Origin: Frigoribacterium sp. PhB160
GTDB lineage: Bacteria; Actinomycetota; Actinomycetes; Actinomycetales; Microbacteriaceae
Assembly: GCF_003751785.1 (NCBI RefSeq)
Contig: NZ_RKIE01000003.1
Span: forward strand, 496,001 to 560,000
Direction: 5' to 3'
Length of the DNA stretch: 64,000 nt
In this document: positions 159 to 63,914 of the stretch, piece by piece
Layout of the letters: every line of letters starts with the position of its first letter
Numbering within the stretch: position 1 is the first letter of the stretch
Notes under the pieces: generated by a model
What the model was told of the DNA's origin: nothing
Databases searched by the model: none
Seen by the model: the letters and a program-made list of their open reading frames with translations, nothing else
Program-made: the position numbers and the translations under genes

Positions 159-259
159 CTGACCACCCTAGGCGGTTTCGCGGCGGGCTCTCGAGGCGGG
201 TTCGTCAGGTCGGCTCGTCAGGCCGGTCAGCGCAGCAGGACGCACCGCGGAGGCGCGCC

Positions 260-715
260 TCAGACCGCCCGCTTCGTCCAGCTGATGAGGTGGGCCGGGT
301 CGTACCGCCGCGAGCAGCGTCCGCAGGCGAGCGGCCGCTTCGGCTCGCGGTAGCGGAAGTGCTCGTGGCCCGCGGCGCAGACGCCGACCCAGGGTGCGAG
401 CTCGGACGCGATCGCGCCGTCGTGCAGCCGGTCGCCCACGTAGCCGAGCTCGGCGGCGGTCGCCTTCCAGCGCGGACCGTGGCCGGCGCGCGACCCCGCG
501 ACGGCGTGGGCCACCTCGTGCAGCAGCACCTGGTGGATCTCGTCGTCGTCGTACCGGCCGGCGAGATGCCGCGAGACCGAGATGCGCTTCTTGCCGTAGT
601 CGCAGAGGCCGGCGCGGGTCTTGGCGTTGTCGAACGCGAAGGTCCACGCGGCGGGGTCGAGGTGCAGGGCGATGAGGGCGTCGGCCCAGCGACGCACCCG
701 GTCGAGGTCGGCCAC
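260..715 (-). CDS. SprT-like zinc metalloprotease
   Basis: This 151-residue protein has the SprT-family arrangement: an HEVAH zinc-binding helix at about residues 66-70 (HExxH), and a C-terminal zinc-ribbon-like part with Cys at about 113, 130 and 133 (CAAGHEHF, then CGRC). SprT/Spartan relatives are thought to degrade DNA-linked proteins, but the bacterial members are poorly characterised and the substrate is unknown. The start is a GTG at 715, only six bases after the stop of the small His-rich gene and without a clear Shine-Dalgarno sequence, so translation probably depends on coupling to the upstream genes. The size fits the short SprT-like family. Confidence 0.85.
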   Translation of the reverse strand: MADLDRVRRWADALIALHLDPAAWTFAFDNAKTRAGLCDYGKKRISVSRHLAGRYDDDEIHQVLLHEVAHAVAGSRAGHGPRWKATAAELGYVGDRLHDGAIASELAPWVGVCAAGHEHFRYREPKRPLACGRCSRRYDPAHLISWTKRAV

Positions 716-721
716 GACGGG

Positions 722-877
722 TCAGCGGGCCCGGTGCTGCCGGCGGCCGAGGCCGGGCCGGCGGGGCCGGTCGTGCCCGCACCCGTGCCCCGGCTCGCGC
801 CCGTGCTCGCGGCCGTGCGCGTGCCCGGGCTCGCCCTCGTGCGCGGCGTGGACGACCGGCGAGGAGGCGCCGGTCAC
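722..877 (-). CDS. small His-rich protein (51 aa), translationally coupled
   Basis: The stop codon of the upstream 379-residue gene overlaps a GTG in a GTGA junction. This GTG opens a 51-codon frame that ends six bases before the SprT-like start. The product has eight histidines and one cysteine, mostly in short Gly-His, Ala-His and Glu-His units between residues 10 and 36, which would suit metal binding. The gapless coupling on both sides is the main reason to call it a gene. Against it, the same frame runs on as a shadow inside the upstream gene, and GC-rich DNA can give such composition by chance. No family was recognised. Confidence 0.5.
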   Translation of the reverse strand: MTGASSPVVHAAHEGEPGHAHGREHGREPGHGCGHDRPRRPGLGRRQHRAR

Positions 878-2013
878 CGCCGCGGGAACGGCCAGGTGGT
901 CGGCTGGTCGTCGCGCGGCAGCCCGTCGACGACGCCCGTCACGCCGGTGGTGCCGGGGCGGGGGTCGTCCTCGTTGCGGTCCTCGTCGTCGTGCGCGGGG
1001 GCGTCGACGACGGTGGCGCGCTCGCGGTCGCGGTGGCCCGCGGCGTTGGCGGCGAGGCCGGAGATCTTGCTCCAGAGGCTGGCGTCGGCGCGGGGAGGCA
1101 GCGCGGGCTCGGGCTCCTCGACGGGGGCCGGGGGCTGACGCGGGCTCCAGGGGCTGCCGGCGTGGCCGGTGCCCCCGGTCGACGGGCCGGTGCCCGCCGG
1201 GTCGGCCGACGCGGTCGCGGGCACCGAGGTGATCGGGCCCGAGAGGTCGACGGGGTTCGTGTCGCCGGGGCGGGCGTCGCCGGCGCCGCCGACGGGGCTG
1301 CCGCCGCCGATGAGGGCGTCGACCCCGCGGGGGCGCGGGGCGGCGGGGGCCGGTGCCTCGGTCGGCGCGGGGGCGGCGACCGGCTCGACCGGTCCGGTGC
1401 CCGCGAGGTAGGCGCGGACGACGCCGTCGAGCGCCGAGCGGAGGTCGTCGATGCGGTCGCGCGGGGCGCCGGTCGCCTCGAAGGCGAGCAGCGCCTGCGA
1501 GAGGGTGTCGCGGGCCTCGTCGTGACGGCCCAGGTCGAAGAGCGTGTAGCCCTCGAGCTCGGCGGCGGCGGCCTCGAGCTCGCGCCACTCCTCCGTCGAG
1601 GCGGTGATGCGGCTCGTGTGCAGGTCGTTGAGCGCGCGCTCGAGCTTGCCCTGCTCACGGAAGACGTGGGCCCTCCGGATGCGCGCGGCCGTCGAGTCGG
1701 CCCGGTCGCCCGTGAAGTGGGCCAGCCGGAAGGCCTCCTCGGCGATGGCGAGCGCCTCGTCGAGGCGGCCGAGGGTGCGGAGCAGGTCGGCGCGCTCGCC
1801 GAGCGCAGAGGTGCTGCGGCTCTGGCCGAGGGCCGCGAGACGGGCCTCGGCGGACGGGACGTCGACGGCGGTGCGGAGGCTCACGGGGTCGAAGCCGTGC
1901 GCGGAGTGGCCCTGCCGGGGCGCCGGCGCGGAGGGCGCGCCACGGTCCGGCTGCGTGCTCGGGCGGCGGTCGCTTCCGGGTGCTGATCCTGAGGAGGGGG
2001 CGTGCGGGCTCAT
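874..2013 (-). CDS. TPR-like protein with a disordered Pro/Ala-rich tail
   Basis: The 379-residue product has three parts. Residues 1-45 are low-complexity. Residues 50-190 are helical, with repeat-like units such as RADLLRTLGRLDEALAIAEE and EGYTLFDLGRHDEARDTLSQ, typical of tetratricopeptide repeats. Residues 200-379 are a Pro/Ala/Gly-rich, probably disordered tail. TPRs usually bind protein partners, and the partner is unknown. The gene is the first of a tight leftward set with the His-rich ORF and the SprT-like protease. The ATG at 2013 lacks a good ribosome-binding site, so a later start is possible. Confidence 0.7.
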   Translation of the reverse strand: MSPHAPSSGSAPGSDRRPSTQPDRGAPSAPAPRQGHSAHGFDPVSLRTAVDVPSAEARLAALGQSRSTSALGERADLLRTLGRLDEALAIAEEAFRLAHFTGDRADSTAARIRRAHVFREQGKLERALNDLHTSRITASTEEWRELEAAAAELEGYTLFDLGRHDEARDTLSQALLAFEATGAPRDRIDDLRSALDGVVRAYLAGTGPVEPVAAPAPTEAPAPAAPRPRGVDALIGGGSPVGGAGDARPGDTNPVDLSGPITSVPATASADPAGTGPSTGGTGHAGSPWSPRQPPAPVEEPEPALPPRADASLWSKISGLAANAAGHRDRERATVVDAPAHDDEDRNEDDPRPGTTGVTGVVDGLPRDDQPTTWPFPRR

Positions 2014-3285: not shown

Positions 3286-3403
3286 GGTCCGCGCCTCCTG
3301 GTCGTCCCCCCATGAGACACGAGGAAGGCGACACATGGGGCGCATCGTTGCACGACCGTGACGACTGAGCATCTGTCGTCATCGGCCGGAGGCGCGGTGC
3401 GGC

Positions 3404-6114: not shown

Positions 6115-6645
6115 TCAGAGCCGCCCGTCGAAGAGGTGCCCGCCGGAGGCGCGGCCGACGCCGGCAGCGCCGCCGTGCGACCCCGAGGCGCCCGCGCCCA
6201 CGGCGCCGCTCGCGTCGTAGATGCTGCCCGCGGCCGCGTCGGCCGCCGTGGCGAGGGTCTCCTGGGTGGCCCGGGCCGCGGCGCGGAGGAAGCGCTCGTT
6301 CTCGTCGCGGAGCTGCGAGATGCGGGCGGTGAGCTCGGTCATCGAGCGCAGGTGGCCGGTGAAGATCTCTCCCCAGGGGCCTGCGGGAGCCGAGGCGATG
6401 ATGTCGCGGAGGGGCGCCTCCTCGTCGGTGCCCCACTCCTGGGCCACGCTCGAGACCTCGACGCTGCGGGCCAGGCCGGCCTCGCGCAGGCGGTCGAGCA
6501 CCTGCTCGACCTCGCGGCTGGCGTGGTCGACCCAGCGGGTGCGGCCGGCGGTGAGCAGCAGCTGCTCCTCCTCCAGCTTGAAGGTGAGCAGCTCGAGCAG
6601 CTCGCGTTCGCGCCAGAGCAGCGCGGACAGCTCGTTCGCGCCCAT
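6115..6645 (-). CDS. flgN: FlgN-like export chaperone for FlgK and FlgL
   Basis: The first gene of the leftward late-flagellar operon encodes 176 residues. Residues 1-125 are helical and match the FlgN pattern (LLWRERELLELLTFKLEEEQ at 9-28). The last 50 residues are Gly/Ala-rich and probably flexible. FlgN chaperones hold hook-filament junction proteins before export, and the downstream genes are exactly flgK and flgL. The ATG at 6645 has a GAGGAGACC sequence just upstream. A FliA-type promoter lies 68 bases before the start. Confidence 0.88.
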   Translation of the reverse strand: MGANELSALLWRERELLELLTFKLEEEQLLLTAGRTRWVDHASREVEQVLDRLREAGLARSVEVSSVAQEWGTDEEAPLRDIIASAPAGPWGEIFTGHLRSMTELTARISQLRDENERFLRAAARATQETLATAADAAAGSIYDASGAVGAGASGSHGGAAGVGRASGGHLFDGRL

Positions 6646-6712: not shown

Positions 6713-6739
6713 CTATCGGCGGAGGCGCGGGCTGCGTTA
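6713..6739 (-). promoter_or_regulatory. FliA (sigma-28)-type promoter for flgN-flgK-flgL-fliW
   Basis: On the minus strand, TAACGCAG (6739-6732), an 11-base spacer and GCCGATAG (6720-6713) closely follow the sigma-28 consensus TAAAGTTT-N11-GCCGATAA. The -10 element ends 67 bases before the flgN ATG. The spacer is almost entirely the GGAGGCGCG repeat found across the window. Confidence 0.75.
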
Positions 6740-7120
6740 GCGAGCAGGGCGCCCTCGATGCAGCGACCCGCCCTGCGCGACGCGGTCCGCGCCTCCTACC
6801 GGGTCGGCGCCGGTGGGCGCCAGTGCCTCGCCACCCCAGGTCGGGGGAGGGGGTACGGGAGGGGTCCCCCGGAGACGTGACACCCGTTCCCCCGCACTGG
6901 GGACACGGGGGCACTTATCCAGCCAACCGGTTCTCAGTAGCGTTGTGGATGCACGGCGGAGGAACGACACGCCGGGTCGAGAGCACAGCTCACCCGACTC
7001 GCTCGTCCCACTCGGACCGACGCACCGCTCGTCGGAAGAGCCCTGATCAGAGGGCTGTTCGTCGCGCCGGAAAACATCTGCCGCCCGCTCGCCGGGCCTC
7101 GTCATGCTGGGAGCATCGAC
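6740..7120. other. non-coding stretch upstream of the flagellar sigma factor
   Basis: No supported gene. A 77-codon frame here has no ribosome-binding site and no recognisable sequence. AT-richer bases around 6917-6950 and 7066-7080 may hold the sigma-factor promoter. A short inverted repeat (AGCCCT...AGGGCT) lies near 7040-7057. No clear FliA-type promoter was seen for the sigma gene itself. Confidence 0.5.
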
Positions 7121-9052: not shown

Positions 9053-10444
9053 ATGGCGTCACTCGGCATCGACGGCCTCGTCAGCGGGCTCGACACCACG
9101 ACGCTGATCAACACGCTGATGGCGTCCGAGGCCGTCCCGCAGACGATCCTCAAGAACAAGGCCACCGTCGGCCAGACCCTCGTCACCGCCCTCCAGGGCC
9201 TCAACACGAAGGTGGCCGACCTCGCGACGCTCGCGAAGAAGGCCTCCGCGGTCGACTCGCTCGCCGTCTCGACGGCCACGAGCAGCAGCACCTCCGTCAC
9301 GGCCGCGACCACGGCCGGCGCGATCCCCGGCCAGCTCGACTTCACGGTCCGCTCGACGGCCCAGGCGAAGAGCGGCGTCACCGCCGCGATGACCGCCTGG
9401 CCCGACAGCCCCGCGACCCTCACCTTCGTGGGGGCCGGCGGGAAGACGACCGAGGTGACCGCCGCCTCCTCGTCGCTCGACGACGTCGTGAAGGCCGTCA
9501 ACGCCTCCGCGGACGCCGGGGTGCGGGCGACCAAGGTCGCCTCCGGCAAGGACGCCTCGGGCGCCACGCTCTACCGCCTGCAGCTGACCTCCGCGACGAG
9601 CGGGGCCGAGGGCGGCTTCGAGGTCCATCGCGGCACGGCGGCGGCCGTCGCCGACGGGTCGGCCGTGAACCTGCTCACGCAGCCGGGCGCCGCCGTCGTC
9701 AAGGAGGCGCGCGACGCCTCCGTGACCCTCTGGGCCGGCACCGCGGCCGAGCAGGTCGTCACCAGCGCGAGCAACACCTTCAGCGACCTGCTGCCCGGCG
9801 TCTCGGTCACCCTCGCGGCGACCGCGAAGGCCGACGAGGCCGTCACCGTCACCGTCGCTCGCGACACCGCGGCGGCGTCGAAGGTCGCCTCCGACCTCGT
9901 CACCGGCCTGAACGGCGTGCTGACGCTGATCGCGCAGCGCTCGGCCAGCACGACCAGCACGAGCGCCACCGGGACGACCTCGGTCACGGGCGGGGCCTTC
10001 ACCGGCAACTCGACCACCCGCGAGGTCTCGCAGCGGCTGTCGTCGGCGATGAGCGCCCCGATCGGAGGAACGTCGCCGTCGAGCATCGGCATCTCGATCA
10101 CCAAGACGGGCACCTTCGAGTTCGACGACGCCAAGTTCCAGACGGCGCTGGCGGCCGACCCCGCGAAGGTGCAGTCGATGCTGACCGAGCTCGCCGGACG
10201 CGTCTCGACCGCCGCGAGCAGCGCCTCCGACAAGTTCGACGGCACCCTCACGAAGGTCATCACCGGCCAGCAGTCGCTGGTCAAGGACCTCAACGACCAG
10301 GTCTCGGTCTGGGACGACCGGCTCTCGTCGCGTCGCGCCCAGCTCCAGAAGACGTACTCCGCCCTCGAGACGGCCCTCAGCTCGCTGCAGTCGCAGCAGA
10401 GCTGGTTGACGAGCCAGCTCTCGAGCCTCTCGACGAGCAGCTGA
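9053..10444 (+). CDS. fliD: flagellar filament cap protein FliD
   Basis: The 463 residues match FliD (HAP2). The N-terminal motif GIDGLVSGLDTTTLINTLMA is diagnostic, and the C-terminus is the expected coiled coil (QVSVWDDRLSSRRAQLQKTY and the following SALETALSSLQSQQSWL). FliD caps the growing filament and helps flagellin fold. The start has a good ribosome-binding site (GAAGGAGCACCCG). Four bases separate it from fliS, so the two are an operon. No convincing separate sigma-28 promoter was seen between fliC and fliD. Confidence 0.95.
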   Translation: MASLGIDGLVSGLDTTTLINTLMASEAVPQTILKNKATVGQTLVTALQGLNTKVADLATLAKKASAVDSLAVSTATSSSTSVTAATTAGAIPGQLDFTVRSTAQAKSGVTAAMTAWPDSPATLTFVGAGGKTTEVTAASSSLDDVVKAVNASADAGVRATKVASGKDASGATLYRLQLTSATSGAEGGFEVHRGTAAAVADGSAVNLLTQPGAAVVKEARDASVTLWAGTAAEQVVTSASNTFSDLLPGVSVTLAATAKADEAVTVTVARDTAAASKVASDLVTGLNGVLTLIAQRSASTTSTSATGTTSVTGGAFTGNSTTREVSQRLSSAMSAPIGGTSPSSIGISITKTGTFEFDDAKFQTALAADPAKVQSMLTELAGRVSTAASSASDKFDGTLTKVITGQQSLVKDLNDQVSVWDDRLSSRRAQLQKTYSALETALSSLQSQQSWLTSQLSSLSTSS

Positions 10445-10448: not shown

Positions 10449-11042
10449 ATGGACGCCACCTCCTTCGCGGCCTTCGCCGCCACCTCCCGCCCCGCGGCCG
10501 TCGCGCAGAAGCAGCGCGCCGCCTACAACGAGCAGGCCGTGCTCTCGGCGACGCCCGTGCAGCTCGTCACGATGCTCTACGACCGCCTCATGCTCGACCT
10601 CGCCCGCGCCGAGCAGGCGCAGGTGATCAGCGACTGGACCACCGCCGGCGAGCAGCTGCTGCACGCGCAGGCGATCATCGCCGAGCTGTCGTCGTCGCTC
10701 AAGGTCGACGTCTGGGACGGCGGCGAGGGGCTCTTCGCGCTGTATACGTACACGTCGACCGCGCTCATCAACGCCAACGTGCAGCGCGACGTCGCGCTGA
10801 CCCGCGAGGTCGCCGGGCTGCTCGCCCCGCTGCGCGACGCCTGGCACGAGGCCGCCGCGTCGCTCCAGGCCGGAGGCGCGGCCGGCTCCGGCCTCCCCGC
10901 CCCGGCCGTCCCGGGTGCGGCCGTGCCCGGTGCCGGCGCACAGGTGCCGGCGGGGGCCGCGGCGTTCGGGGGCGCGACCTCCGGGTACGGGGCGACCAAC
11001 GCCTCCTCGTCGTCGTTCGGGGGAGCGCTCGGTGTCGCCTAG
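10449..11042 (+). CDS. fliS: flagellin chaperone FliS with a long C-terminal tail
   Basis: Residues 20-140 match FliS, the chaperone that keeps flagellin unpolymerised before export: YNEQAVLSATPVQLVTMLYD near residues 26-45 and a four-helix pattern ending near residue 140. The family is usually about 125-140 residues long. This protein has 197 because of a Pro/Ala/Gly-rich tail (about 142-197) that is probably disordered. The start is an ATG eight bases into the space after fliD. The gene overlaps the next start by 11 bases, so the two are translationally coupled. Confidence 0.9.
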   Translation: MDATSFAAFAATSRPAAVAQKQRAAYNEQAVLSATPVQLVTMLYDRLMLDLARAEQAQVISDWTTAGEQLLHAQAIIAELSSSLKVDVWDGGEGLFALYTYTSTALINANVQRDVALTREVAGLLAPLRDAWHEAAASLQAGGAAGSGLPAPAVPGAAVPGAGAQVPAGAAAFGGATSGYGATNASSSSFGGALGVA

Positions 11043-11676: not shown

Positions 11677-13206
11677 CTACCCCCACGGGATCACCCCGAC
11701 GACGATCGCCACCGCCAGCATCACGAGGCTGACCACCGCGGCCCGCCACAGCACCTTCTTGTGGTGGTCGCCGAGGTTGACGTTGGCGAGGCTGACGAGC
11801 AGCAGGATCGCCGGCACCAGCGGGCTCTGCAGGTGCACCGGCTGCCCGATGACCGAGGCGCGGGCCATCTCGACGGGCTCGATGCCGAAGGCCGAGGCGC
11901 TCTCGGCGAGCACGGGCAGGATGCCGAAGTAGAACGCGTCGTTGCTCATGAAGAAGGTGAGCGGCAGGCTCAGCACGCCGGTGATGGCGGCCAGGTACGG
12001 CCCCATCGCGTCGGGGATCACGGCGACGAGCCACTGCGCCATCGCGTCGACCATGCCGGTGCCGTTCAGCACGCCGATCAGCACGGCGGCGGCGAACACC
12101 ATCGACACGACGCCGACGATGCTCGGGGCATGGGCGACGATCTCGGCCTGCTGCTGCTTCACCTTGGGGAAGTTCACGAGCAGCGCCACCGCCGACCCCA
12201 CCATGAACACGTACGCGAGCGGGAACAGGTCGAGCACGAGCAGCACCATCACGGCGACCGTGAGCACGAGGTTGAACCAGATCATCCGCGGCCGCAGCGT
12301 CTCGCGCATCGGGTCGAGCATGGTGTCGGCCATCGTCCCCGACCCGCCGAGCGCACCGTTGGCGTCGCCCGCTCCGCCGATCCCCGACGAGGAGGCGCGG
12401 GTCGGGTTGTCCACCGCCGTCACCCCCGGTGCGTCCGCCCTCGATCCGTCGGCCCGGCCTCCGCGCAGCCCGAGCGCCACGGTGGGGCTGGTGAACATCG
12501 AGACGCCGCGGCCCTCGGCCACGCCGGAGCCGGCGTTGGCCATCGCCTTCGACAGCGGCACGGCGACGGCCGCGGTGTCGAGCGAGACGCTGCCGCCGAG
12601 ACGACGGCGCTCGCGGAGTCCCATGAGCCAGGCGAACGCGAACGCGACGACGAGGCCGGCGACGAGCGACGGCACGAGCGGCACGAAGATCGACGACGGC
12701 GACACGTTGAGCGCGGCGGCGGCGCGGACGGTCGGGCCGCCCCACGGGACGATGTTGAGCGTGCCGTTGATGAGCCCGGCGACGCAGGTGAGCACGACCG
12801 GGCTCATGCCGAGGCGCAGGTAGATCGGCAGCATCGCCGCGGTGGTGACGATGAAGGTCGTCGAGCCGTCGCCGTCGAGGGAGACGGCCCCGGCGAGGAG
12901 GGCCGTCCCGAGCACGATCTTCGCGGGGTCGTTGCCGGTCACGCGCAGGATGAACCGCACCAGCGGGTCGAACAGCCCGACGTCGATCATGAGGCCGAAG
13001 TACATGATCGCGAACATGAGCAGCGCGGCCGTGGGGGCGAGGTCGCCGACCGCCTCGATGACCATGTCGCCGATGCCGAGCCCGGCGCCGGCGAAGAGCC
13101 CGAAGATCGTCGGCACCATGATCAGCGCGAGCATCGGCGAGAGCCGCTTGGTCATGATCAGCACCATGAAGGTGAGGATCATCAAGTAGCCGAGCAGGAT
13201 CAGCAT
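11677..13206 (-). CDS. CitMHS-family citrate-metal:proton symporter
   Basis: The 509-residue membrane protein has about 12 hydrophobic segments and the CitMHS family sequence (LILLGYLMILTFMVLIMTKR at the N-terminus; GDGSTTFIVTTAAMLPIYLR near 112-131; NIVPWGGPTVRAAAALNV near 150-167). Family members import citrate complexed with Mg2+ or Ca2+ with protons. A hydrophilic loop of about 90 residues (about 200-290) is longer than usual. The divergent CitA/CitB-like two-component system starting 311 bp away is the likely regulator, as in Bacillus citrate loci. The ATG at 13206 has a GAAGGAGTCCCG sequence before it. Confidence 0.9.
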   Translation of the reverse strand: MLILLGYLMILTFMVLIMTKRLSPMLALIMVPTIFGLFAGAGLGIGDMVIEAVGDLAPTAALLMFAIMYFGLMIDVGLFDPLVRFILRVTGNDPAKIVLGTALLAGAVSLDGDGSTTFIVTTAAMLPIYLRLGMSPVVLTCVAGLINGTLNIVPWGGPTVRAAAALNVSPSSIFVPLVPSLVAGLVVAFAFAWLMGLRERRRLGGSVSLDTAAVAVPLSKAMANAGSGVAEGRGVSMFTSPTVALGLRGGRADGSRADAPGVTAVDNPTRASSSGIGGAGDANGALGGSGTMADTMLDPMRETLRPRMIWFNLVLTVAVMVLLVLDLFPLAYVFMVGSAVALLVNFPKVKQQQAEIVAHAPSIVGVVSMVFAAAVLIGVLNGTGMVDAMAQWLVAVIPDAMGPYLAAITGVLSLPLTFFMSNDAFYFGILPVLAESASAFGIEPVEMARASVIGQPVHLQSPLVPAILLLVSLANVNLGDHHKKVLWRAAVVSLVMLAVAIVVGVIPWG

Positions 13207-43190: not shown

Positions 43191-43351
43191 TCCGCACACG
43201 GTACAGAAGCGCGCCTCCGCGGGTCGGCTGTCGTCGGAGCTGAAGGTCGGTGGGCCGAGCACCCCTCGGTCGGCCGCGTCCGCTCGGGGGATGAGGCGCG
43301 TCGTCACGGCGGCCGATGCGGTGCGCGGGCGACCCGGCTCAGGATGAGACG

Positions 43352-52193: not shown

Positions 52194-53159
52194 CTACCCC
52201 TTGACGCCGCCGGCGCTGAGGCCCGACTGCCAGAACCGCTGCAGGAAGAGGAAGGCCGCGACGAGCGGCAGGATCGACACGAACGACCCGGTCAGCACGG
52301 TCGAGAAGAGCACCTGCGCCCCGCCGCCGCCCGTGGCCGCCTGCTGCCACTGGGCGAGGCCGACCGTCGCCGGGAAGAGGTTCGGGTCGTTGAGCATGAT
52401 CAGCGGCAGGAAGTAGTTGTTCCAGGTCGAGACCAGGGCGAACAGCAGCACCGTGACCACGCCCGGCGCGAGCAGCCGCGACGAGATGGTGAGGAAGATG
52501 CGCAGCTCGCCGGCCCCGTCGATGCGGGCCGCCTCGAGCAGGCTGTCGTCGACCGCCTCCGACGCGTAGACGCGCATGAGGTAGACGCCGAACGGGCTGA
52601 CCAGCGACGGCAGGATGATCGCCCACGGGGTGTCGACGAGGTTCGCCGCGCTGAACAGCAGGTAGGTCGGGATCGCCAGGGCGGTCAGCGGCACCATGAC
52701 GGCGCCGAGGATCAGCCCGAACACGAACGACCGGCCCTTGAACACGTACTTCGCCAGCGAGTAGCCGCACATGGTCGCGAGGATCGCGGCCCCGACCGAG
52801 CTCGCCACGGCGTAGAGGATCGTGTTGCCCATCCAGTGCAGGAAGATGCCGTCCTGGAAGGTGAACAGCTGCGCGACGTTGTCGCCGAGCGCGAAGGTGC
52901 GCCCGAACGCCAGGCCGAACGTGCTGAAGATGTCGGCGTTCGTCTTCGTCGCCTGCACCGCCAGCCAGACGAGCGGCAGCAGGAAGTACGCCAGCGTGAT
53001 CCAGAGGATCACGGTGAGGATCGGCGCCTTCTTCTTCGACCGCTCGACGCGACGTCGCGGGCGTCGCCGACCCGCGCCTCCGGCGCTCTGGAGACGGCGG
53101 GCGGGCCGGTCGGTCGCCGTGGCTCCGGCGGTGTCGACGGGGGCGGGTGCGATCGTCAC
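52194..53159 (-). CDS. ABC sugar transporter permease (MalG-like)
   Basis: The 321-residue permease has about six TM helices and the EAA loop EAARIDGAGELRIFLTISS, typical of CUT1-family sugar importers. The N-terminal 45 residues are polar and may be disordered. The GTG at 53159 overlaps the previous permease stop (GTGA) and has AAGGAG eight bases upstream. No ATPase gene is in the operon, so a shared MsmK/MalK-type ATPase encoded elsewhere is likely used. Confidence 0.92.
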   Translation of the reverse strand: MTIAPAPVDTAGATATDRPARRLQSAGGAGRRRPRRRVERSKKKAPILTVILWITLAYFLLPLVWLAVQATKTNADIFSTFGLAFGRTFALGDNVAQLFTFQDGIFLHWMGNTILYAVASSVGAAILATMCGYSLAKYVFKGRSFVFGLILGAVMVPLTALAIPTYLLFSAANLVDTPWAIILPSLVSPFGVYLMRVYASEAVDDSLLEAARIDGAGELRIFLTISSRLLAPGVVTVLLFALVSTWNNYFLPLIMLNDPNLFPATVGLAQWQQAATGGGGAQVLFSTVLTGSFVSILPLVAAFLFLQRFWQSGLSAGGVKG

Positions 53160-55613: not shown

Positions 55614-57764
55614 CTAGGGGGTGACGCTGGTCGCGTCGTCGTCGTCCTGGTCGTCGTCGACGAGCTCGAACACGTGGGCCGAGCGCGGGGCGAGGGTGAC
55701 GGCGGTGCCGGCCGCGACGACCTCGCGGGTCTCGAGGTCGCGGACGGCGGCGGGCGTCGTGACGGCGGCCTCGTGGGCCGACCAGTTCGAGACGAACGCC
55801 AGGTCGGGGGACTCGGGGCGGCTGCCCGTCGTGACGGTGACCGTGTCGGTCGCCGCCCAGGCGCGCACCGCCGTCGCCGGCACGAGCCAGCGGGCGATGC
55901 TGCGCGACAGCTCGGGGTTCGGCACCGTGGCGACGTAGGTGACGCGACCGGCGCCGGAGGCGCGGGTCGTCATCACGGCGTCGGCCCCGACCTCGGTGGC
56001 CGGGAACCGCAGCACGACCTCGGCCTCCTCGACGACGAGCACGTCCGCCCAGCGCGTGCCGGCCGAGCCGGGCTCGAGCTCGATCGTCGGGGCGTCGGCG
56101 TCGGCGTCGGCCGACTGCACGAGGAGCGGCTCGTCGAGGTTCGTGTACTCCTCGTACCAGACGCCCGCGGGGCCCGAGAGGACCGCCGGGGCGACGTCGC
56201 GACGGGCCCGGGCGAGCTCGTCGCCGTAGCCGGTGCGGACGCCGACCACGAGGTGGCCGCCCGCCTCGGCGTAGGCCGCGAGGGCCTCGAGGGTCGCGTC
56301 GTCGGCGACGTAGAGGCCGGGCACGACGAGCACGGGGTGCTCGGCGGCGACGGTCGCGGGGTCGGTGGCGAGGAACTGCGCCACGTGCTGGATCCGCACT
56401 TGCGCCCCGGCCTCGGCCAGGCCGCGGTAGTGGGCGTCGAAGAGGTGCAGGTACGAGTCGGGGTCGGGCCCGCCGTCGGGGAGGGCGAGGGGCGGGTAGC
56501 CCTCGAACGACCACTTCGTGTCGGTGGACCAGAGCATGAGCACGTCGCTGGCAGGGAGGAATCCGTCCACCGCGCCTCCTACCGCCTTGAGAGTGGCGCC
56601 GAGGGCGGCGACCTCGCGGTGGATGCGTCCGGGACGCTGGCTGTGCGGCAGCACGCCGCCCCAGTAGGTCTCGACGCCGAAGTGCAGCGTGTGCCAGTGC
56701 CAGTACTCGACCATGCGGGCGCCGCGGGCGACGAGCGCGAGGGCGGCCTGCTTGATCTGCCCGTCGAACGGCGGGTGGTTCTGCCACGGGCCGCCGATCG
56801 ACTGCGCGTTCGTCTCGGTGACGAGGAACGGCGCCTGCGCCGACGAGAACGCCCGGTCGCCCCACTGGTGGAGGGCCCAGACGCCCGTGTGCCACCAGCC
56901 GGCCTCGCGCTGCACCTCGACGCCGCGGGTGAGGCCGTCCTGCATCTTGTAGTACGGGTTGCCGGCGGTGACGTCGAGGCTCTCGACGAGGCGGTCGTCG
57001 GCGACCTGGGGGCGGGCGTACGAGATGCAGGTCGTGACGAACTGCTCGTCTCGGGCGTACTCGCGCACCACGTCGGCCTGCCACGCGATCAGCTCGTCGG
57101 CCAGCTCGCCCTGGAAGCGGCGCCACTCGAGGTCGTACTGCGGCTGCACGTTGCCGTCGGGGCGCCAGAGCTGCGACCACTCGGTGAGGCGGTGCGACCA
57201 GTAGACGAGGCCCCACTCGTCGTTGAGCGACTCGACCGAGCCGTAGCGGCGCTCGAGCCACGCGACGAAGCGCGCGAAGACCTGGTCGTTGCGGGGCAGC
57301 TCGTTGCCGGGCTCGTTGTCGACCTGCCAGCCGACGACCGCGGGGTGGTCGGCGTAGCGGGCGGCGACCCTGCGCACGACGCGCTCGGCGTAGAAGCGGT
57401 AGGCGGGGTGGCTCTGGTCCATCTCCTGGCGGGCGCCCCAGCCGACGCGCTGACCGGTCGTGCGCTCGGCGGCGATCTCGGGGTGGAGCACCTGCAGCCA
57501 CGGCGGCACGGCGTAGGTCGGCGTGCCGAGGATCACCGAGATGCCGCGGGCGTGGGCCCCGTCGAGCACGGGCTGCAGCCAGTCGAGGTCGAACTCGCCC
57601 TCGCGCGGCTCCCAGGTCGACCAGACCGACTCGCCGACGCGGATCACGGTGAAGCCCGCCTCGACCATGAGGTCGAGGTCGCGGTCGAGGGTGCCGGCCT
57701 GCTGGTACTCGGCGTAGTAGGCGGCGCCGAAGAGGACTCCGGAGTGGGCGGGTGCTGACGTCAT
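55614..57764 (-). CDS. GH42 beta-galactosidase
   Basis: The 716-residue enzyme has the GH42 A domain (about 10-390), with acid/base Glu151 in WQVDNEPGNE and nucleophile Glu317 in LVTETNAQS, then a B trimerisation-like domain (about 390-620) and a small C-terminal domain. It lacks a signal peptide and is probably cytoplasmic, cutting imported beta-galactosides such as galacto-oligosaccharides. It is the first gene of a leftward operon with the ABC importer. A LacI-type operator lies 75 bp before its ATG. Confidence 0.93.
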   Translation of the reverse strand: MTSAPAHSGVLFGAAYYAEYQQAGTLDRDLDLMVEAGFTVIRVGESVWSTWEPREGEFDLDWLQPVLDGAHARGISVILGTPTYAVPPWLQVLHPEIAAERTTGQRVGWGARQEMDQSHPAYRFYAERVVRRVAARYADHPAVVGWQVDNEPGNELPRNDQVFARFVAWLERRYGSVESLNDEWGLVYWSHRLTEWSQLWRPDGNVQPQYDLEWRRFQGELADELIAWQADVVREYARDEQFVTTCISYARPQVADDRLVESLDVTAGNPYYKMQDGLTRGVEVQREAGWWHTGVWALHQWGDRAFSSAQAPFLVTETNAQSIGGPWQNHPPFDGQIKQAALALVARGARMVEYWHWHTLHFGVETYWGGVLPHSQRPGRIHREVAALGATLKAVGGAVDGFLPASDVLMLWSTDTKWSFEGYPPLALPDGGPDPDSYLHLFDAHYRGLAEAGAQVRIQHVAQFLATDPATVAAEHPVLVVPGLYVADDATLEALAAYAEAGGHLVVGVRTGYGDELARARRDVAPAVLSGPAGVWYEEYTNLDEPLLVQSADADADAPTIELEPGSAGTRWADVLVVEEAEVVLRFPATEVGADAVMTTRASGAGRVTYVATVPNPELSRSIARWLVPATAVRAWAATDTVTVTTGSRPESPDLAFVSNWSAHEAAVTTPAAVRDLETREVVAAGTAVTLAPRSAHVFELVDDDQDDDDATSVTP

Positions 57765-57979: not shown

Positions 57980-58996
57980 TCAGTCGCCGACGGCCCCCGT
58001 GGAGGCGCGCCGCACGAGCCGAGGGGCCGGCAGCCGCAGCGTCTGGTCCGTCGCCCGCCCCTCGATGAGCGAGATGAGCGAGGTGACGACGTGCTCCCCC
58101 TCGAACCGGAAGTCGAGCTCGACCGTGCTGAGCGGCGGCACCATGAACTTGGCCTCGGGGGAGTCGTCGATGCCGACGACGCTGACGTCTCCCGGCACCG
58201 AGACCCCGGCGGCCGTGAAGGCGGCGATGAGGCCCATCGCCATGGCGTCGTTCGCGACGCCGACCGCCGTCAGCGCGCGGCCCTCGTCGGCGAGACGGTG
58301 CTCCGCGACCAGCCGCCGCCCGGCCGACCAGCCCGACTCGGCCGACCAGTCGCCCGGGACGACGTCGACGACCTGCCCGCCGCCCCCGGCGACGGCCGCG
58401 GTGAAGCCGTCGAGGCGCTCGCGGGCCGCGAGCCACTGCGCGGGCCCGGCGACGTAGGCCACGCGGCGGTGGCCGAGGTCGACGAGGTGCTGGCCTGCCT
58501 CGCGGCCGGCGTGCTCGTTGAGGGTCTCGTCGGTGTCCTCGAGCAGCAGGCCGAAGTCGCGCGCCACGGGCACCGTGATGTCGCGTCGGGCGATCGTCTC
58601 GCGGGCCACCGCGGTCTGGGCCATGAGCACGATCCCGGCGATCTGCTGGCTGAGGACGAGGTCGAGGGCGTCCCGGATGCTGTCCTCGTCGGTGCCGTCC
58701 ATCGAGACGATGTCGGAGACGTAGCCGAGGTCGCGCGCCGCCTTCGTCGCCCCGGCGATCGTGAGGGCCGGGCCCGTCTGCTGCATGTTGTCGGCGAGCA
58801 GCGCGATGCGGTTCGTCCGTCCGAGCCGCAGGAACCGCGCCGCCGAGTTCGGCCGGTACTCGAGCTCGGCGAGGGCCGCCTCGACCTTCTGGCGGGTCGC
58901 GGGCCGGATGCCCTCGAAGCCGCTCAGCACCCGGCTCACCGTCTGGTGCGAGACGCCCGCGCGCTTCGCGACGTCGTAGATGGTGGCGTCGGGCAT
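57980..58996 (-). CDS. LacI-family repressor of the GH42/ABC operon
   Basis: The 338 residues have the LacI HTH at 5-24 (TIYDVAKRAGVSHQTVSRVL), the hinge helix (NSAARFLRLGR) and a periplasmic-binding-like ligand domain (about 60-335). It is encoded immediately upstream of the GH42 operon in the same direction, with the operator in the spacer. The inducer is likely a sugar from beta-galactoside breakdown. The ATG at 58996 is the only start that keeps the HTH intact. Confidence 0.95.
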   Translation of the reverse strand: MPDATIYDVAKRAGVSHQTVSRVLSGFEGIRPATRQKVEAALAELEYRPNSAARFLRLGRTNRIALLADNMQQTGPALTIAGATKAARDLGYVSDIVSMDGTDEDSIRDALDLVLSQQIAGIVLMAQTAVARETIARRDITVPVARDFGLLLEDTDETLNEHAGREAGQHLVDLGHRRVAYVAGPAQWLAARERLDGFTAAVAGGGGQVVDVVPGDWSAESGWSAGRRLVAEHRLADEGRALTAVGVANDAMAMGLIAAFTAAGVSVPGDVSVVGIDDSPEAKFMVPPLSTVELDFRFEGEHVVTSLISLIEGRATDQTLRLPAPRLVRRASTGAVGD

Positions 58997-59048: not shown

Positions 59049-60146
59049 ATGACCCGTCCCTCCGCCGTCGACCTGCTCGCCGGCGCGCGCTTCCGCACCC
59101 TCTGCGTGGCCGTGGCCACCGAGCTCGACCCGGAGGCCGCCTCCCTCGTCTGGGACCTGAGGTCCCGGGTGGGCGAGGCCACCGCCCTGCCGGGCACCTT
59201 CCGCACGCCGTCGGGGCAGGTCGACCGGCTCGCCCAGCGGCTCGCGGCCGTCCCGACGGAGGCGCTGGCCGGCTGGGCGGACCCGCTGCGGTTCCTGCCC
59301 GCGCTCGCGACGGCCGTCGACTCGGCGATGCCCTGGCAGGCGCCGCACGTCGAGGACGCCGTCACCGCCGACGCCCGGGTGCGAGAGGCGCTGCTGCCGG
59401 TCGCCGAGGCCGTCCTCGCCTCGCCGGCCACCGCCTGGTGGGGGAGCGACGTCGACCTCGACGCCCAGTGGGTGACGACGCCGGTGCGCGACGGTCGCGT
59501 CGTGCCGAACAGCAGCCCGGGGCCGGTCGCGGAGACGCTCGCGCACTGGTCGGCGAACCACGACCGGGAGAACGCCCCGCCGCGGGGCCGTGCCTCCGCC
59601 TGGCGGTCGTCGAGCGGCAGCTGGTGGTCCGCGCCCCACAACCACGGCCCGGCGGTCGACGAATGGGCGTCGCCGCACTCGTCGACGCGGCGCGTGGGCG
59701 GCCTCGGATCGGTCGAGCTCGAGCTCGTCGAGGACGGCTTCGGCGACCACGAGGCGTTCCTCCGGCGGCTGACGCCGACCCGTCCGCCGCGCGTGCACGA
59801 GGTGCACACCGCCGCCGACTGGGCCGACCTCGTCGCCCGCTGGCCCCGGGACGCCACGTCGGCGCACCGCGGCGACTGGTTCCGGTCGACGGGCCGCGAC
59901 GTGCCGTGGTCCGTGCCCGACTGGCCTCGCGTCGCCGAGGAGCTCGACGCCGTCCACGTGTCGGTGCAGGGATGGCTCGCGGCCTCAGGCGAGGCGGTCG
60001 ACGTCCCCGGCGGCGCGACGGTGCTCGCGGGCTGGAACCCCGACGAGACGTACTGGCTCACCGACGACGTCACGGTCGCCGACGAGGCCGAGCACTGGTC
60101 GTCCGACGACGAGGTCGACGAGATCCTGACCTGGAGGCGCGTCTAG
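59049..60146 (+). CDS. unknown 365-residue protein, Trp-rich
   Basis: A soluble protein with no recognised family. The N-terminal third is helical and Ala/Leu-rich (about 1-120), and the rest has many tryptophans and an acidic end (DEAEHWSSDDEVDEILTW). The ATG at 59049 is 52 bp from the divergent LacI start and has no strong ribosome-binding site. Composition matches the host. Confidence 0.7.
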   Translation: MTRPSAVDLLAGARFRTLCVAVATELDPEAASLVWDLRSRVGEATALPGTFRTPSGQVDRLAQRLAAVPTEALAGWADPLRFLPALATAVDSAMPWQAPHVEDAVTADARVREALLPVAEAVLASPATAWWGSDVDLDAQWVTTPVRDGRVVPNSSPGPVAETLAHWSANHDRENAPPRGRASAWRSSSGSWWSAPHNHGPAVDEWASPHSSTRRVGGLGSVELELVEDGFGDHEAFLRRLTPTRPPRVHEVHTAADWADLVARWPRDATSAHRGDWFRSTGRDVPWSVPDWPRVAEELDAVHVSVQGWLAASGEAVDVPGGATVLAGWNPDETYWLTDDVTVADEAEHWSSDDEVDEILTWRRV

Positions 60147-60618: not shown

Positions 60619-62121
60619 ATGACGCAGCCCCGTGACCCGCTCCGCCCCGCCGACGTCGTGGTGGTCGGCGACGTGACGATCGTCCCCGACGCCGCCCGAC
60701 CCGTCGCCGCGGTGGTCGCCGGCGGCGCGACCGCGGACTCGGAGGCCGCCGTGCGCTGGGCCACGTGGCCCGACGCCCCGCTCGGCGACCACGCCCCGGG
60801 CGAGGCGCAGGTCGTGCCCGCCCCGACCGGCGCATGGGTCGTGTACCGCCCCGAGGTGCCGGACGACGCGCCTTCGGTCGCACCCCACCCCGTGGCCGTC
60901 CACGTCGGGCTCGACGCAGTGGTCACGGTCGTCGCGCTCGGCGACCGGCACGTGCTCGGCGCCGACCAGGACGGGCTGTGGCTCGGCGACGCCCGAGACG
61001 CCTTCGAGTGGTCCGGGCGGCTGCCGTTCGAGGGCGACGACGACCCCGGTGACGGCGACGTCGCCGAGGGCGGCTCGGACGGGGTCGAGCCCGACCCCGA
61101 GACGCTGCCGTGGGTGCCCGAGACCCCGTTCTGGCCCGAGGCCGGAACGGCGGACGACGAGGAGGCGCGGGCCGACACCCGGCACCGCGCACCCGACGAC
61201 CCCGACCTGACATGGTCGGCGGACGACGACCCCGACGGCGACCCCGACGACGACTCCGTCGTCGCGACCGCCGGCTGGTTCCTCACCGCCGGCAGCGGCG
61301 ACGACGCTCTCGCGCTCCGCCTCGGACCGGACGGCATCGAGTTCCCCGACGACCCCGACGACCCCGACGACCCGGTCGCCGACGCCGAGCCGCCGAGCCC
61401 GACGCCGTCGACCGTCCTCGCCCTCGTCCGCCCCGACGGCAGCCGGGCCGAGGTCCGGGTCGACCGCCTCGCCGACGGCGTCCGCCGCGAGGGCGACGAG
61501 CTCGTCGTGCGGTTCCACCCGACCGGGCCGCGGCAGGTCGCGAGCCGCTGGGGCGGGTGGGACGTCGTGTACGAGCCGCGCGAGGTGCGGGTCGACGTGT
61601 CGGCCGGGCTGCCGGAGGAGATCGTGACGGTCGGCGCGGCGACGGAGCCGGCGCCGGAGCACGACCCGGCCGCCTGGGAGCGGGAGGAGGAGGTGCGGGA
61701 GTCGGCCCGCGCCTCCTGGTCGGGCCGTCTCGACCTCGTCGGCGTCGACGGCTCGCGCTGGGCCCCCTGGGGCGGCGACGAGACGGCCCACGCGGCGGCC
61801 GTCGCGCGCCTGACCGCGGTCTTCGAGGGGCTCGGGGAGCCCGTCGTCCTCTGGACCCGCGAGCACCCGGGGCTCCGGCGCGCGCCGAGCGAGTACCGCG
61901 ACGTGCGGGTCGAGGTCGTCGGGGAGTGGCCCGACGTCGAGCTCGTCGTCAGCCTCGAGCACCGGTCGATGCCGCACCTGCGGCTGCGGCGGCGCTACCG
62001 CGTGTCGGACGAGACGGGGCGTCCGCTCGAGTGGCAGTACGTCACGGTGCACCTCGACGAGGACGTCGCCACCGCCCTGCCCCCGCGCTCGCAGGCCGTC
62101 GACGGCGTGCTCGACATCTGA
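60619..62121 (+). CDS. unknown acidic protein with Asp/Pro-rich linkers
   Basis: The 500 residues are strongly acidic, with runs of Asp/Pro (for example PDDPDDPDDPVADAEPPSPT at about 250-269) between structured segments. The last third is beta-rich (DLVGVDGSRWAPWGGDETAH). No family was recognised. The ATG at 60619 is divergent from the cupin gene. The long acidic linkers suggest several small domains on a disordered chain. Confidence 0.7.
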   Translation: MTQPRDPLRPADVVVVGDVTIVPDAARPVAAVVAGGATADSEAAVRWATWPDAPLGDHAPGEAQVVPAPTGAWVVYRPEVPDDAPSVAPHPVAVHVGLDAVVTVVALGDRHVLGADQDGLWLGDARDAFEWSGRLPFEGDDDPGDGDVAEGGSDGVEPDPETLPWVPETPFWPEAGTADDEEARADTRHRAPDDPDLTWSADDDPDGDPDDDSVVATAGWFLTAGSGDDALALRLGPDGIEFPDDPDDPDDPVADAEPPSPTPSTVLALVRPDGSRAEVRVDRLADGVRREGDELVVRFHPTGPRQVASRWGGWDVVYEPREVRVDVSAGLPEEIVTVGAATEPAPEHDPAAWEREEEVRESARASWSGRLDLVGVDGSRWAPWGGDETAHAAAVARLTAVFEGLGEPVVLWTREHPGLRRAPSEYRDVRVEVVGEWPDVELVVSLEHRSMPHLRLRRRYRVSDETGRPLEWQYVTVHLDEDVATALPPRSQAVDGVLDI

Positions 62122-62181
62122 GCCTCGCTCGGGCGCTCGTGCGAGAATTCCCCGAGGCCCGCGACCGGGCCGCCGACGGGG

Positions 62182-63540
62182 GTGGAGCGCGTGGTGCGAG
62201 GCTGGCCGGGGCGACGCCCCGACGAGGAGGCGCCTCCCGCGTCCGCGGACGCACCCGGCCCCGCTGCCCGCCACGGTCGCCTGCCGCGGCACCCCGCGTG
62301 GCTGACGGCTCTCGAGGGCGGCGCGGTCGTCGTGGGCGTCGTGCTCGTGAGCTCGGTGTCGATCGCGGCCTGGGCGACCTGGGACGTGGCACGGCAGATC
62401 CAGGGCAACTCGGTCGACCTGACCGCCAACGACGGCGGCGACGCGACCCCGCTGCCCGCCGTCGACGAGCTCGAGGGCGGGTTCAACGTCCTGTTCGTCG
62501 GCGCCGACAACGAGGAGGGCCAGGACCAGGCCGCCTTCGGCCAGCGCGACGCGACCCTCAACGACTTCAACCTGCTGCTGCACGTCTCGGCCGACCACAC
62601 CAACGCGACCGCCGTGAGCATCCCGCGCGACCTGATCGTCGCCCACCCGGAGTGCACCGACCCCGTGACCGGCGAGACGTCCGCCGCGCGGTCGGCGGCG
62701 CCGATGAACACGGCGATGGCGCGCGGCGGCCTCGCCTGCGTCGCCGACACGGTCGAGTCGCTGACCGGCCTCGACGTGCCCTACGCGGCCGTGCTGACGT
62801 TCGCGGGCGTGCGGGGCATCAGCGACGCGATCGGCGGGGTCGACGTCTGCCTCGCCGACCCGGTGCGCGACCCCGACTCGGGCCTCGACCTGGAGGCGGG
62901 GGTCCAGACCCTGAGCGGCGACGACGCCCTGAAGTTCCTGCGCACGCGGTACGGCGTGGGCGACGGCAGCGATCTGGCGCGCATCTCGGGGCAGCAGGCG
63001 TACCTCTCGTCGCTGCTGCGCAAGGTCAAGTCGGACGGCACCCTGACGAGCATCCCGACGCTGTACTCGCTGGCGAACGTCGCGGCGAAGACGATCACGC
63101 TGTCGTCGTCGCTGACGGACGTCGACCAGATGATCGCGATGGCGCGGGTGTTCCGCGACATGGACCTCGCCGCGGTCACGTTCGTGCAGTACCCGGGCAC
63201 GACGGAGGATCCGTCCTACCCCGGCAAGGTCGTGCCGATCACGTCGCAGGCCGACGTGCTCATGGCGAAGCTCGCGGCCGACGAGCCCGTGGTGCTGGCC
63301 GGCGACTCGACCGGTCTCGGCACCACGCTCGACCCCGCCGCCACGGCGCCGCCGGCCACGCCGGGCGACCCGGCCGCGCCCGACGCGTCGGCCGACCCGT
63401 CTGCCGACCCGACGCTGCCGGGCACGCCCGCCGAGTCCGGCGCACCCGCGCCGAGCGACCCGGCCGCCGAGCCGCTCGAGGGCCTCTCCGGCCAGTCGGC
63501 CGCCCAGCAGACCTGCTCCGTCGGCTACGGCCGCGGCTGA
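62182..63540 (+). CDS. LCP-family (LytR-CpsA-Psr) cell-wall glycopolymer ligase
   Basis: The 452-residue protein has a cytoplasmic start, one TM helix (about 43-70) and an LCP domain (about 95-330) with SIPRDLIVAHP, an FLRTRYGVGDGSDLAR segment holding catalytic arginines, and ISGQQAYLSSLL. LCP enzymes attach wall polymers to peptidoglycan from lipid carriers. The C-terminal 90 residues are Pro/Ala/Asp-rich and probably span the wall. GTG codons at 62182, 62191 and 62194 are all possible starts; GGAG lies before the last two. Confidence 0.9.
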   Translation: MERVVRGWPGRRPDEEAPPASADAPGPAARHGRLPRHPAWLTALEGGAVVVGVVLVSSVSIAAWATWDVARQIQGNSVDLTANDGGDATPLPAVDELEGGFNVLFVGADNEEGQDQAAFGQRDATLNDFNLLLHVSADHTNATAVSIPRDLIVAHPECTDPVTGETSAARSAAPMNTAMARGGLACVADTVESLTGLDVPYAAVLTFAGVRGISDAIGGVDVCLADPVRDPDSGLDLEAGVQTLSGDDALKFLRTRYGVGDGSDLARISGQQAYLSSLLRKVKSDGTLTSIPTLYSLANVAAKTITLSSSLTDVDQMIAMARVFRDMDLAAVTFVQYPGTTEDPSYPGKVVPITSQADVLMAKLAADEPVVLAGDSTGLGTTLDPAATAPPATPGDPAAPDASADPSADPTLPGTPAESGAPAPSDPAAEPLEGLSGQSAAQQTCSVGYGRG

Positions 63541-63666
63541 GGCACGGTCCAGGCGCGACGGCCCCGCCGCACCACCCCGTCCCCGGCGACGGCCGCGAGA
63601 GGACCGCCCGCATCCCACCCGCCGGCACGCCGCGACGCCACGGCCGGGGCGACTACCGTCGCCCCC

Positions 63667-63870
63667 GTGAGCCGACCCGACGACGACGTCCCGCCGCCGT
63701 CGGCGCCCGCGCCCGACCCCGGCCCCGATCCCTGCCGACCGCTCCCTGCCCCGCGGCTGGACCCGCATCGGGCGGCGACGCCGGTGGACCATGGGGGCCG
63801 GCGTCAGCACCCTCAGCGTCTTCGTCGAGTCGCCGGCCGCTCCCGGCCAGCCCCTGCCCGCCTCGTGGTG
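63667..63870 (+). pseudogene. small gene with an apparent frameshift
   Basis: A GTG at 63667 opens a Pro/Asp-rich frame. A second frame (+1) gives a plausible protein end from about 63736: RSLPRGWTRIGRRRRWTMGA, then STLSVFVESPAAPGQPLPAS and TGA at 63868. The first frame continues as Arg-rich sequence typical of out-of-frame DNA. Either there is a frameshift in the proline-rich part or the +1 frame uses an unseen start. The assignment is tentative. Confidence 0.35.
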
Positions 63871-63914
63871 AGCACCCGCCGGAGGCGCGCCTCACCCCCC
63901 GAGAGGACCCACCC

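Follow-up and report, generated by a model that had tools for sequence, protein, structure and literature searches.

A nine-base word in the window and the genome

The DNA analysed here is a stretch of 64,000 nt from Frigoribacterium sp. PhB160 (contig NZ_RKIE01000003.1, positions 496,001 to 560,000), and this full stretch is called the window. The element under study is a 9-mer, GGAGGCGCG, a candidate DNA uptake sequence (DUS) of its genus, whose copies are listed in Table 1 together with a low-GC stretch that is devoid of them. The window contains 37 exact copies, 21 on the plus strand and 16 on the minus strand. The first lies at 249 and the last at 63881-63889, in agreement with the span given in an earlier note on this DNA, which was made from the sequence alone; the over-representation reported there also stands, whereas its count of thirty-four copies is too low. 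Dinucleotide shuffles of the window gave a mean of 7.0 copies (standard deviation 2.7, largest value 14, n=100). Markov models of orders 0-5 fitted to the window predict 3.3-8.4 copies, with 3.9 at order 3. The expectations at orders 6 and 7 rise to 18.6 and 31.2 because these models already hold most of the word. Of the 9-mers that the window contains at least eight times, GGAGGCGCG scores highest at orders 2 and 3, but not at order 7.

Table 1. Copies of the word and the low-GC stretch in the window
Feature	Position	Strand	Context
GGAGGCGCG copy	249..257	+	non-genic
GGAGGCGCG copy, possible ribosome-binding site	3290..3298	-	non-genic by caller; ATG 4 nt after on - strand
GGAGGCGCG copy	3388..3396	+	non-genic
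GGAGGCGCG copy	6145..6153	+	antisense phase 0 in 6115-6645 (-)
GGAGGCGCG copy	6721..6729	+	non-genic
GGAGGCGCG copy	6788..6796	-	non-genic
GGAGGCGCG copy	9703..9711	+	sense phase 2, FliD-like gene 9053-10444
GGAGGCGCG copy	10872..10880	+	sense phase 0
GGAGGCGCG copy	12391..12399	+	antisense phase 0
GGAGGCGCG copy, inverted pair with 13331	13280..13288	+	non-genic
GGAGGCGCG copy, inverted pair with 13280	13331..13339	-	non-genic
GGAGGCGCG copy	15180..15188	+	sense phase 0
GGAGGCGCG copy	15914..15922	-	antisense phase 0
GGAGGCGCG copy	16180..16188	+	antisense phase 2
GGAGGCGCG copy	17178..17186	-	antisense phase 0
GGAGGCGCG copy	21098..21106	-	sense phase 0
GGAGGCGCG copy	22251..22259	+	antisense phase 2
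GGAGGCGCG copy	22546..22554	-	non-genic by caller
GGAGGCGCG copy	24309..24317	-	non-genic
GGAGGCGCG copy, half of 18-bp palindrome 25130-25147	25132..25140	+	antisense phase 1
GGAGGCGCG copy, other half of palindrome 25130-25147	25137..25145	-	sense phase 2
GGAGGCGCG copy	25908..25916	+	antisense phase 2
GGAGGCGCG copy	39719..39727	-	sense phase 2
GGAGGCGCG copy	41972..41980	-	sense phase 1
GGAGGCGCG copy	42858..42866	+	antisense phase 0
GGAGGCGCG copy	43210..43218	-	non-genic by caller
GGAGGCGCG copy	46311..46319	+	sense phase 0, MFS gene 45882-47375
GGAGGCGCG copy	49371..49379	-	sense phase 2, GH3 gene
GGAGGCGCG copy	49906..49914	+	antisense phase 1, GH3 gene
GGAGGCGCG copy	53073..53081	-	non-genic by caller
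GGAGGCGCG copy	55956..55964	+	antisense phase 0, GH42 gene
GGAGGCGCG copy	56571..56579	-	sense phase 0, GH42 gene
GGAGGCGCG copy	58001..58009	+	antisense phase 0, LacI-type gene
GGAGGCGCG copy	60133..60141	+	sense phase 1
GGAGGCGCG copy	61161..61169	+	sense phase 2
GGAGGCGCG copy	61708..61716	-	antisense phase 0
GGAGGCGCG copy	63881..63889	+	non-genic
Low-GC stretch (63.6%), zero GGAGGCGCG copies, few confidently called genes	26969..39600	.	

The whole genome (3,338,185 bases in four contigs) contains 2043 copies, 1004 on the plus strand and 1039 on the minus strand. The reversed word, used as a control, occurs 256 times (108 + 148) and is eight times rarer. Genome-level Markov expectations were obtained from a sample of 809,547 bases, consisting of 38 stretches spread over the contigs and the window. 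This sample of about 810 kb contains 474 copies, compared with 56 expected at order 3 and 55 at order 4, and of the 9-mers present 15 or more times GGAGGCGCG ranks first at both orders. The count in this sample thus exceeds the third-order Markov prediction, the comparison by which the earlier note had proposed to judge the over-representation.

The word consists of an 8-bp core, GGAGGCGC, followed by a preferred but tolerant G and preceded by A or C. The tolerance of the last base is evident from the variants GGAGGCGCT (102 copies, 17 expected) and GGAGGCGCA (51 copies, 13 expected). After correction for codon phase, genic copies show a weak, asymmetric 3' extension with G at +9, C at +12 and T at +16 (z 6-9), together with A at -1 and a faint enrichment of C around +28 to +37. 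The latter may originate partly from hairpin mates.

One account would trace the word to biased codon or dipeptide usage, to Shine-Dalgarno sites or to a mobile repeat, since GGAGG resembles a ribosome-binding site and the genome has a GC content of 73%. This account is very improbable, and the counts exclude it for the bulk of the copies. Base composition does not explain the rarity of the reversed control. Genic copies fill all six frames with 11-91 copies each, whereas a codon-driven control word places 318 of its 350 copies in two frames; codon bias was therefore rejected. In the window, the copies likewise occupy all six frames, in line with the different frames described in the earlier note, and 12 of the 37 are non-genic. 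The gene caller was home-made and misplaced some starts; therefore, all genic and non-genic figures are approximate. GGA is indeed a rare glycine codon (890 of 21,479 glycine codons in the sample), but the word holds only 5 of the 66 GGA codons of the called window genes. The copy at 3290, proposed earlier as a ribosome-binding site, may be one because an ATG follows in frame with a called gene, but this role is not general. In a lenient test, 10 of the 474 copies stand in a possible Shine-Dalgarno position, compared with 6 of 474 for the complement of the word and 14 of 1,695 for shuffled words, and this explanation was also rejected. The corresponding figure from called starts (1/474) is too strict because of the misplaced starts. 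Beyond the 9-mer, the flank profile shows only the weak preferences given above and no long shared sequence, unlike mobile repeats of the types known as miniature inverted-repeat transposable elements (MITE) and repetitive extragenic palindromes (REP). A mobile repeat was rejected on this ground. The 18-bp perfect palindrome noted before is real, although it lies one base to the left of the position reported for it (25131-25148).

The low-GC stretch at 26969-39600 is probably an acquired island. It has no copy of GGAGGCGCG, compared with 0.5 predicted by its own composition; because this prediction is so low, the missing copies are weak evidence when taken alone. In the genome sample, the word is also less frequent in low-GC blocks.

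Genus specificity and related words in the family

A first sample of relatives comprised 99 genomes from the same genus, from other genera of Microbacteriaceae (44 genomes) and from other families of the order (39 genomes). Within the genus, each of the 15 further genomes sampled has 1355-2305 copies of GGAGGCGCG, with 84-255 copies of the reversed control. Among the 44 members of the family outside the genus, 43 have 1-393 copies, which is near the control; the one exception, G046, has 941 copies, compared with 223 for the control. The genomes from other families contain 13-287 copies, at most about twice the control. When 259 genomes of the family were screened, a count of 100 or more that was also no lower than 2.5 times the control was found only in the own genus (five listed genomes, the source included), in genus g32 (5 of 5) and in genus g84 (1 of 4, G108).

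Other members of the family have other words. The 9-mer CGGATGCCG was found via word counts in leuS loci of named strains and in sampled stretches. The reversed control is depressed in this case and includes a TAG; therefore, CGGATGCCG was judged by comparing genomes. It is at background in the 16 genomes of the own genus (110-184 copies) but exceeds 1,000 copies in 7 of the 44 genomes from other genera: G044 (2375), G040 (2320), G016 (1692), G054 (1382), G023 (1276), G024 (1217) and G021 (1110). The remaining 37 have 7-909 copies, 10 of them 547-909, and the 39 genomes from other families have 19-291. Near leuS, CGGATGCCG occurs 10 + 8 times in Leifsonia sp. Root4, 6 + 8 times in Mycetocola manganoxydans and 4 + 6 times in Agromyces bauzanensis, where 1.4-1.7 copies are expected across the named strains. 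A record titled Planococcus sp. APC 4015 (L100) also has CGGATGCCG in its leuS locus, with 70% GC, as is typical of Microbacteriaceae; its name looks wrong.

In the Frondihabitans genome G019 (260 kb sampled), the top 8-mers are GGATCCTG (118 copies, 15 expected) and AGGATCCG (130 copies, 20 expected), the latter split 69 to 61 between the strands. The word CAGGATCCG has 816 copies across this genome, compared with 0-40 in the own genus, 4-160 in the other 43 genomes of the family and 7-256 in the 39 genomes from other families. It is nearly absent from G004, G010 and G013 of the own genus (0, 1 and 2 copies) though common in relatives, and a restriction system that cuts GGATCC may be the cause of this scarcity.

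GGAGGCGCG, CGGATGCCG and CAGGATCCG have in common a GGA near the 5' end. The preceding base is C in the CGGATGCCG and CAGGATCCG dialects, and A or C in the own genus. A shared 5' CGGA was considered and rejected because GGA is preceded by C in 40% and by A in 33% of cases here, and by A in 63% in relatives of the same genus. No dialect is claimed for G031, whose words look tandem-like or codon-driven, or for G056, which has only weak words of the GGATG type. Regardless of what the words do, the genus-by-genus pattern of dialects stands as a computed fact.

Placement and conservation of the copies

The copies are evenly divided between the strands (232 plus and 242 minus in the sample of about 810 kb). 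Among the 37 samples with at least four copies, heterogeneity is low (chi-square 18.4 on 37 degrees of freedom), and no single sample contributes more than 2.8. Therefore, the word has no local polarity, as judged sample by sample, with the positions of origin and terminus not placed. The strand bias that the earlier note had raised is thus absent from these samples, which bears on two alternatives.

Chi hotspots are short, abundant and specific to lineages, and those known are oriented with replication. A Chi-like role, in which GGAGGCGCG would regulate a helicase-nuclease of the RecBCD, AddAB or AdnAB type and would have spread to guide repair, could account for lineage-specific words with thousands of copies present in core DNA. 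We consider it unlikely because the orientation bias is lacking, and because the placement described below, with an eightfold higher density in convergent gaps than in genes and with hairpin pairing, would be unexpected. Similarly, a dispersed and abundant word acting at the DNA level might be the binding or modification site of a nucleoid-associated, methylation or segregation protein, the first and the second of which the earlier note had also offered. This, too, is improbable. The strong polarity towards dif that characterizes FtsK-orienting polar sequences (KOPS) is absent, and both Chi and KOPS were rejected for want of polarity. HIP1 of cyanobacteria, a palindromic octamer, is similarly dispersed and over-represented, but GGAGGCGCG is not palindromic. 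Genomes usually avoid restriction sites, whereas GGAGGCGCG is enriched, and the replacement by other words genus by genus would be atypical for such protein sites. Overall, the roles proposed in that note (a modification, recombination or nucleoid-protein site, or a small spread repeat) fit less well than DNA uptake sequences, given the lack of strand bias and of a long shared flank and the over-representation of the word rather than its under-representation. The same applies to a Shine-Dalgarno role. DNA uptake sequences, which were absent from the list in the note, agree best with the genus-specific dialects, the hairpin pairs and the turnover.

Outside called genes, where 15% of positions lie, 159 of the 474 copies were found; for words made by shuffling its letters, this figure is 301 of 1,566 (19%). 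Genes contain 0.46 copies per kb, compared with 1.5 for divergent, 2.1 for tandem and 3.8 for convergent gaps. Close neighbours are in excess, with 33 of 436 within 60 bp (17 expected). The majority of these (21 of 33) are arranged head to head, 13 of the 21 being 27-29 apart, and form a GC-rich stem of GGAGGCGCGGTGC, a short loop and GCACCGCGCCTCC. Near-inverted mates with at most two mismatches give 169 matches at +20 to +40, compared with 63 at +120 to +140.

The enrichment in convergent gaps and this stem raise the possibility that the word is a half-site of a spreading transcription-terminator hairpin. In G046, 28 of 40 copies are non-genic, and many of them lie in the same hairpin, which speaks for such an origin. 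For the own genome we regard it as unlikely: 315 of the 474 copies lie inside called genes, 326 have no inverted partner 3' of them at +20 to +40 even with two mismatches allowed, many of the partners of the other 148 occur by chance as judged from the control offsets, and the genic copies carry an asymmetric 3' extension of their own. The terminator role is probably a partial truth for paired copies, and it may be the main one in G046.

Conservation was investigated in the leuS-comEA-comEC-lepA locus of 16 genomes of the genus over up to 20 kb (one was cut at 14.8 kb). The results come from this one locus, with small numbers per pair and with pairs that are not independent. The fraction of aligned copies that remain intact is 0.67 at 84-86% local identity, 0.74 at 87-89% and 0.72 at 90-92%, compared with 0.20, 0.29 and 0.39 for composition-matched 9-mers, an advantage of 1.9-3.3 times. 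At 93-95% identity, the values are 0.82 and 0.52. Copies appear to be kept among close species and to be replaced elsewhere at a similar density in distant ones. The earlier proposal that selection acts on DNA and not on protein is supported, whether the force is selection or drive, with six frames, both strands, non-coding enrichment and added conservation between close species all in its favour. Taken together, the previous interpretation is partly supported.

Competence genes and the proposed role in DNA uptake

The own genome encodes ComEA (SLBB and HHH domains) and ComEC (Competence and metallo-beta-lactamase domains) in one locus, as well as DprA, and ComEC is present in 58 of 60 genomes. 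A type IVa pilus locus lies on C2 (L175:1829-14814) beside rpsL-rpsG-fusA-tuf and reads as pilB, pilT, pilC, pilA, three minor-pilin-like genes, pilD, pilM, pilN and pilO. In Pfam, 8 of 9 pilus genes were matched at E ≤0.01, the pilV-like gene falling below curated cut-offs and the pilX-like gene having no match; pilB and pilT both match T2SSE and were separated by length and order, and pilN and pilO were named by order. PilM was found in 13 of the 16 genomes of the genus and in 23 of the 44 from other genera. A second T2SSE ATPase, of a TadA-like class, is present in all 27 genomes tested, and its locus was read in two. In the own genome, it clusters with a Flp-like pilin (L236:2729-5969, assigned from gene order and appearance), and a Flp-like cluster is also located upstream of topA in G002 (L237). 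The PilN profile gave no match in any of the 27 genomes, carriers of pilM included, and is hence uninformative; so is TadE, with no match in G000 and weak matches in part of the genus. The density of CGGATGCCG is higher in genomes with PilM than in those without it (median 166 and 55 per Mb, one-sided Mann-Whitney p=1.6e-4; p=0.004 when only genomes of at least 2 Mb are used).

Self-specific uptake words are known in only two proteobacterial families, according to the available part of PMC12616744. For the Neisseriaceae, the portion of PMC3630211 at hand lists eight DUS dialects with 943-5,918 copies per genome, and GGAGGCGCG resembles them in its low thousands of copies per genome, its one dialect per lineage and the shared core. 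In Neisseria and the meningococcus, DUS lie about 1.5 kb apart, occur as inverted pairs that act as terminators and show conservation far above average (PMC2397512, in part); inverted pairs, a similar spacing and strong conservation are also seen here, where the mean spacing is 1.48 kb within samples and 1.63 kb as genome length divided by copies. The present case differs from the Neisseriaceae in that it concerns Actinomycetota and an unrelated GC-rich word, with one third of the copies non-genic and no excess of single mismatches. From the Pasteurellaceae, whose uptake signal sequences (USS) have an A/T-rich extension, it differs in that the extension is GC-rich. Like GGAGGCGCG, these USS comprise a 9-bp word with an extended form and come in lineage-specific versions, two of which are described in the accessible text of PMC12616744. 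In summary, the features shared with DUS and USS are the copy excess, independence of orientation, enrichment in non-coding DNA and in pairs, conservation with turnover, dialects and competence genes.

Among actinobacteria, we know of no uptake word for Micrococcus luteus. Its transformation needs Tad/Flp genes, and the term 'uptake sequence' is absent from that paper (PMC4322843); like the present strain, this actinobacterium has ComEA, ComEC and Tad/Flp genes. Natural transformation has been described in two other Microbacteriaceae, Rhodoluna and Aurantimicrobium (PMC11577799, in part).

Based on these comparisons, it is probable that GGAGGCGCG is the DNA uptake sequence of its genus, with dialects in related genera as in the Neisseriaceae and Pasteurellaceae but in an actinobacterial setting. 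This explanation is the best one because it accounts for the abundance, the use of one word per lineage, the strand symmetry, the permissive and terminator positions, the conservation among close species with turnover, the competence genes and the spacing. In the mechanism that we propose, competent cells would bind free double-stranded DNA via a surface filament, of the Tad/Flp type, the type IVa type or both, whose tip or minor pilin would prefer GGAGGCGCG. The bound DNA would be pulled inward to ComEA and ComEC and recombined with the participation of DprA and RecA. Fragments that bear the word would enter more often, and gene conversion would then keep existing copies and spread new ones where they are tolerated, which could lead to a copy every 1.5 kb or so. 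Related genera would have shifted to other words, making DNA exchange mostly self-directed. The inverted pairs at gene ends probably double as transcription terminators. If GGAGGCGCG acts in uptake, Tad/Flp is more likely to be the machine, and the minor pilins of L175 and the Flp/pseudopilin-like genes of L236 are only candidates for the receptor of the word.

Several observations weigh against an uptake role. The 27 one-mismatch words are not in excess after masking of the perfect copies (1086 observed, 1169 expected; 834 and 1088 without the last-base variants), and none of them stands out apart from the last-base variants and GGATGCGCG (27 copies, 12 expected). A simple drive model would predict some excess and is therefore not supported; we regard a near-miss excess as a prediction of that model and not as a defining feature of DUS or USS. 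The conservation advantage shrinks to none above 93% identity, with 0.89 and 0.87 above 95%, and at 78-80% identity the intact fraction of 0.156 barely exceeds the 0.108 of composition-matched 9-mers and is below that of all 9-mers (0.222). The spacing is no more even than random (coefficient of variation 1.07). The non-genic share is 34%, whereas most copies in Neisseria are intergenic, as stated in the available text of PMC2397512. In genus g32 (G046, G158, G215, G265 and G307), GGAGGCGCG is raised to 631-941 copies, 3.7-4.2 times the control. The copies of G046, the one g32 genome that was read, are mostly in the intergenic hairpin described above; g32 is therefore not counted as having the same dispersed dialect, and its copies are possibly a relic of that dialect or a pure terminator.

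The machinery raises further objections. PilM and PilC were not found in three of the 16 genomes of the genus (G002, G003 and G005), which still hold 2058-2167 copies, and these are better kept than controls (36-86% and 14-21% in the five directed pairs listed). Type IVa pili are therefore not essential; the idea that they alone carry out uptake, attractive in view of the association with PilM, was rejected for this reason. Genera that have neither word also possess ComEC and the TadA-like ATPase, which therefore do not discriminate. Fisher tests of the association between CGGATGCCG and PilM at five cut-offs gave p=0.02-0.14, with statistics that ignore kinship, and G057, G037, G018 and G022 are exceptions to it. 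A search of the literature found no uptake, binding or transformation data for the genus, and among the best matches in the openly licensed literature none described uptake words in Microbacteriaceae or mentioned these 9-mers.

With slightly less confidence than for the role of GGAGGCGCG itself, we favour a broader interpretation, in which the Microbacteriaceae would represent a third, independent origin of self-specific uptake and the first in Gram-positives. At least three dialects, (A/C)GGAGGCGCGG in the own genus, CGGATGCCG in many genera and CGGATCCTG in Frondihabitans, would be read by a filament of the Tad/Flp or type IVa type, shaping gene exchange and reshaping thousands of sites per genome. 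If this is true, self-specific uptake evolved again in actinobacteria, probably with different machinery and with several dialects inside one family. Comparisons of the dialects would then constitute a natural experiment, past competence could be read from genome sequence alone, and the words would hint at how to transform soil and plant-associated Microbacteriaceae.

Two further words were encountered. The palindrome GCGATCGC has 64 sites in 260 kb of G046 (L215-L224, L165, L166 and L188) and looks codon-driven because 61 of the sites share one codon phase. In Demequina phytophila, a member of another family (L123), GGACGATGC occurs 14 times in 22 kb, seven times on each strand, compared with 0.6 expected, and is a possible uptake-like word.

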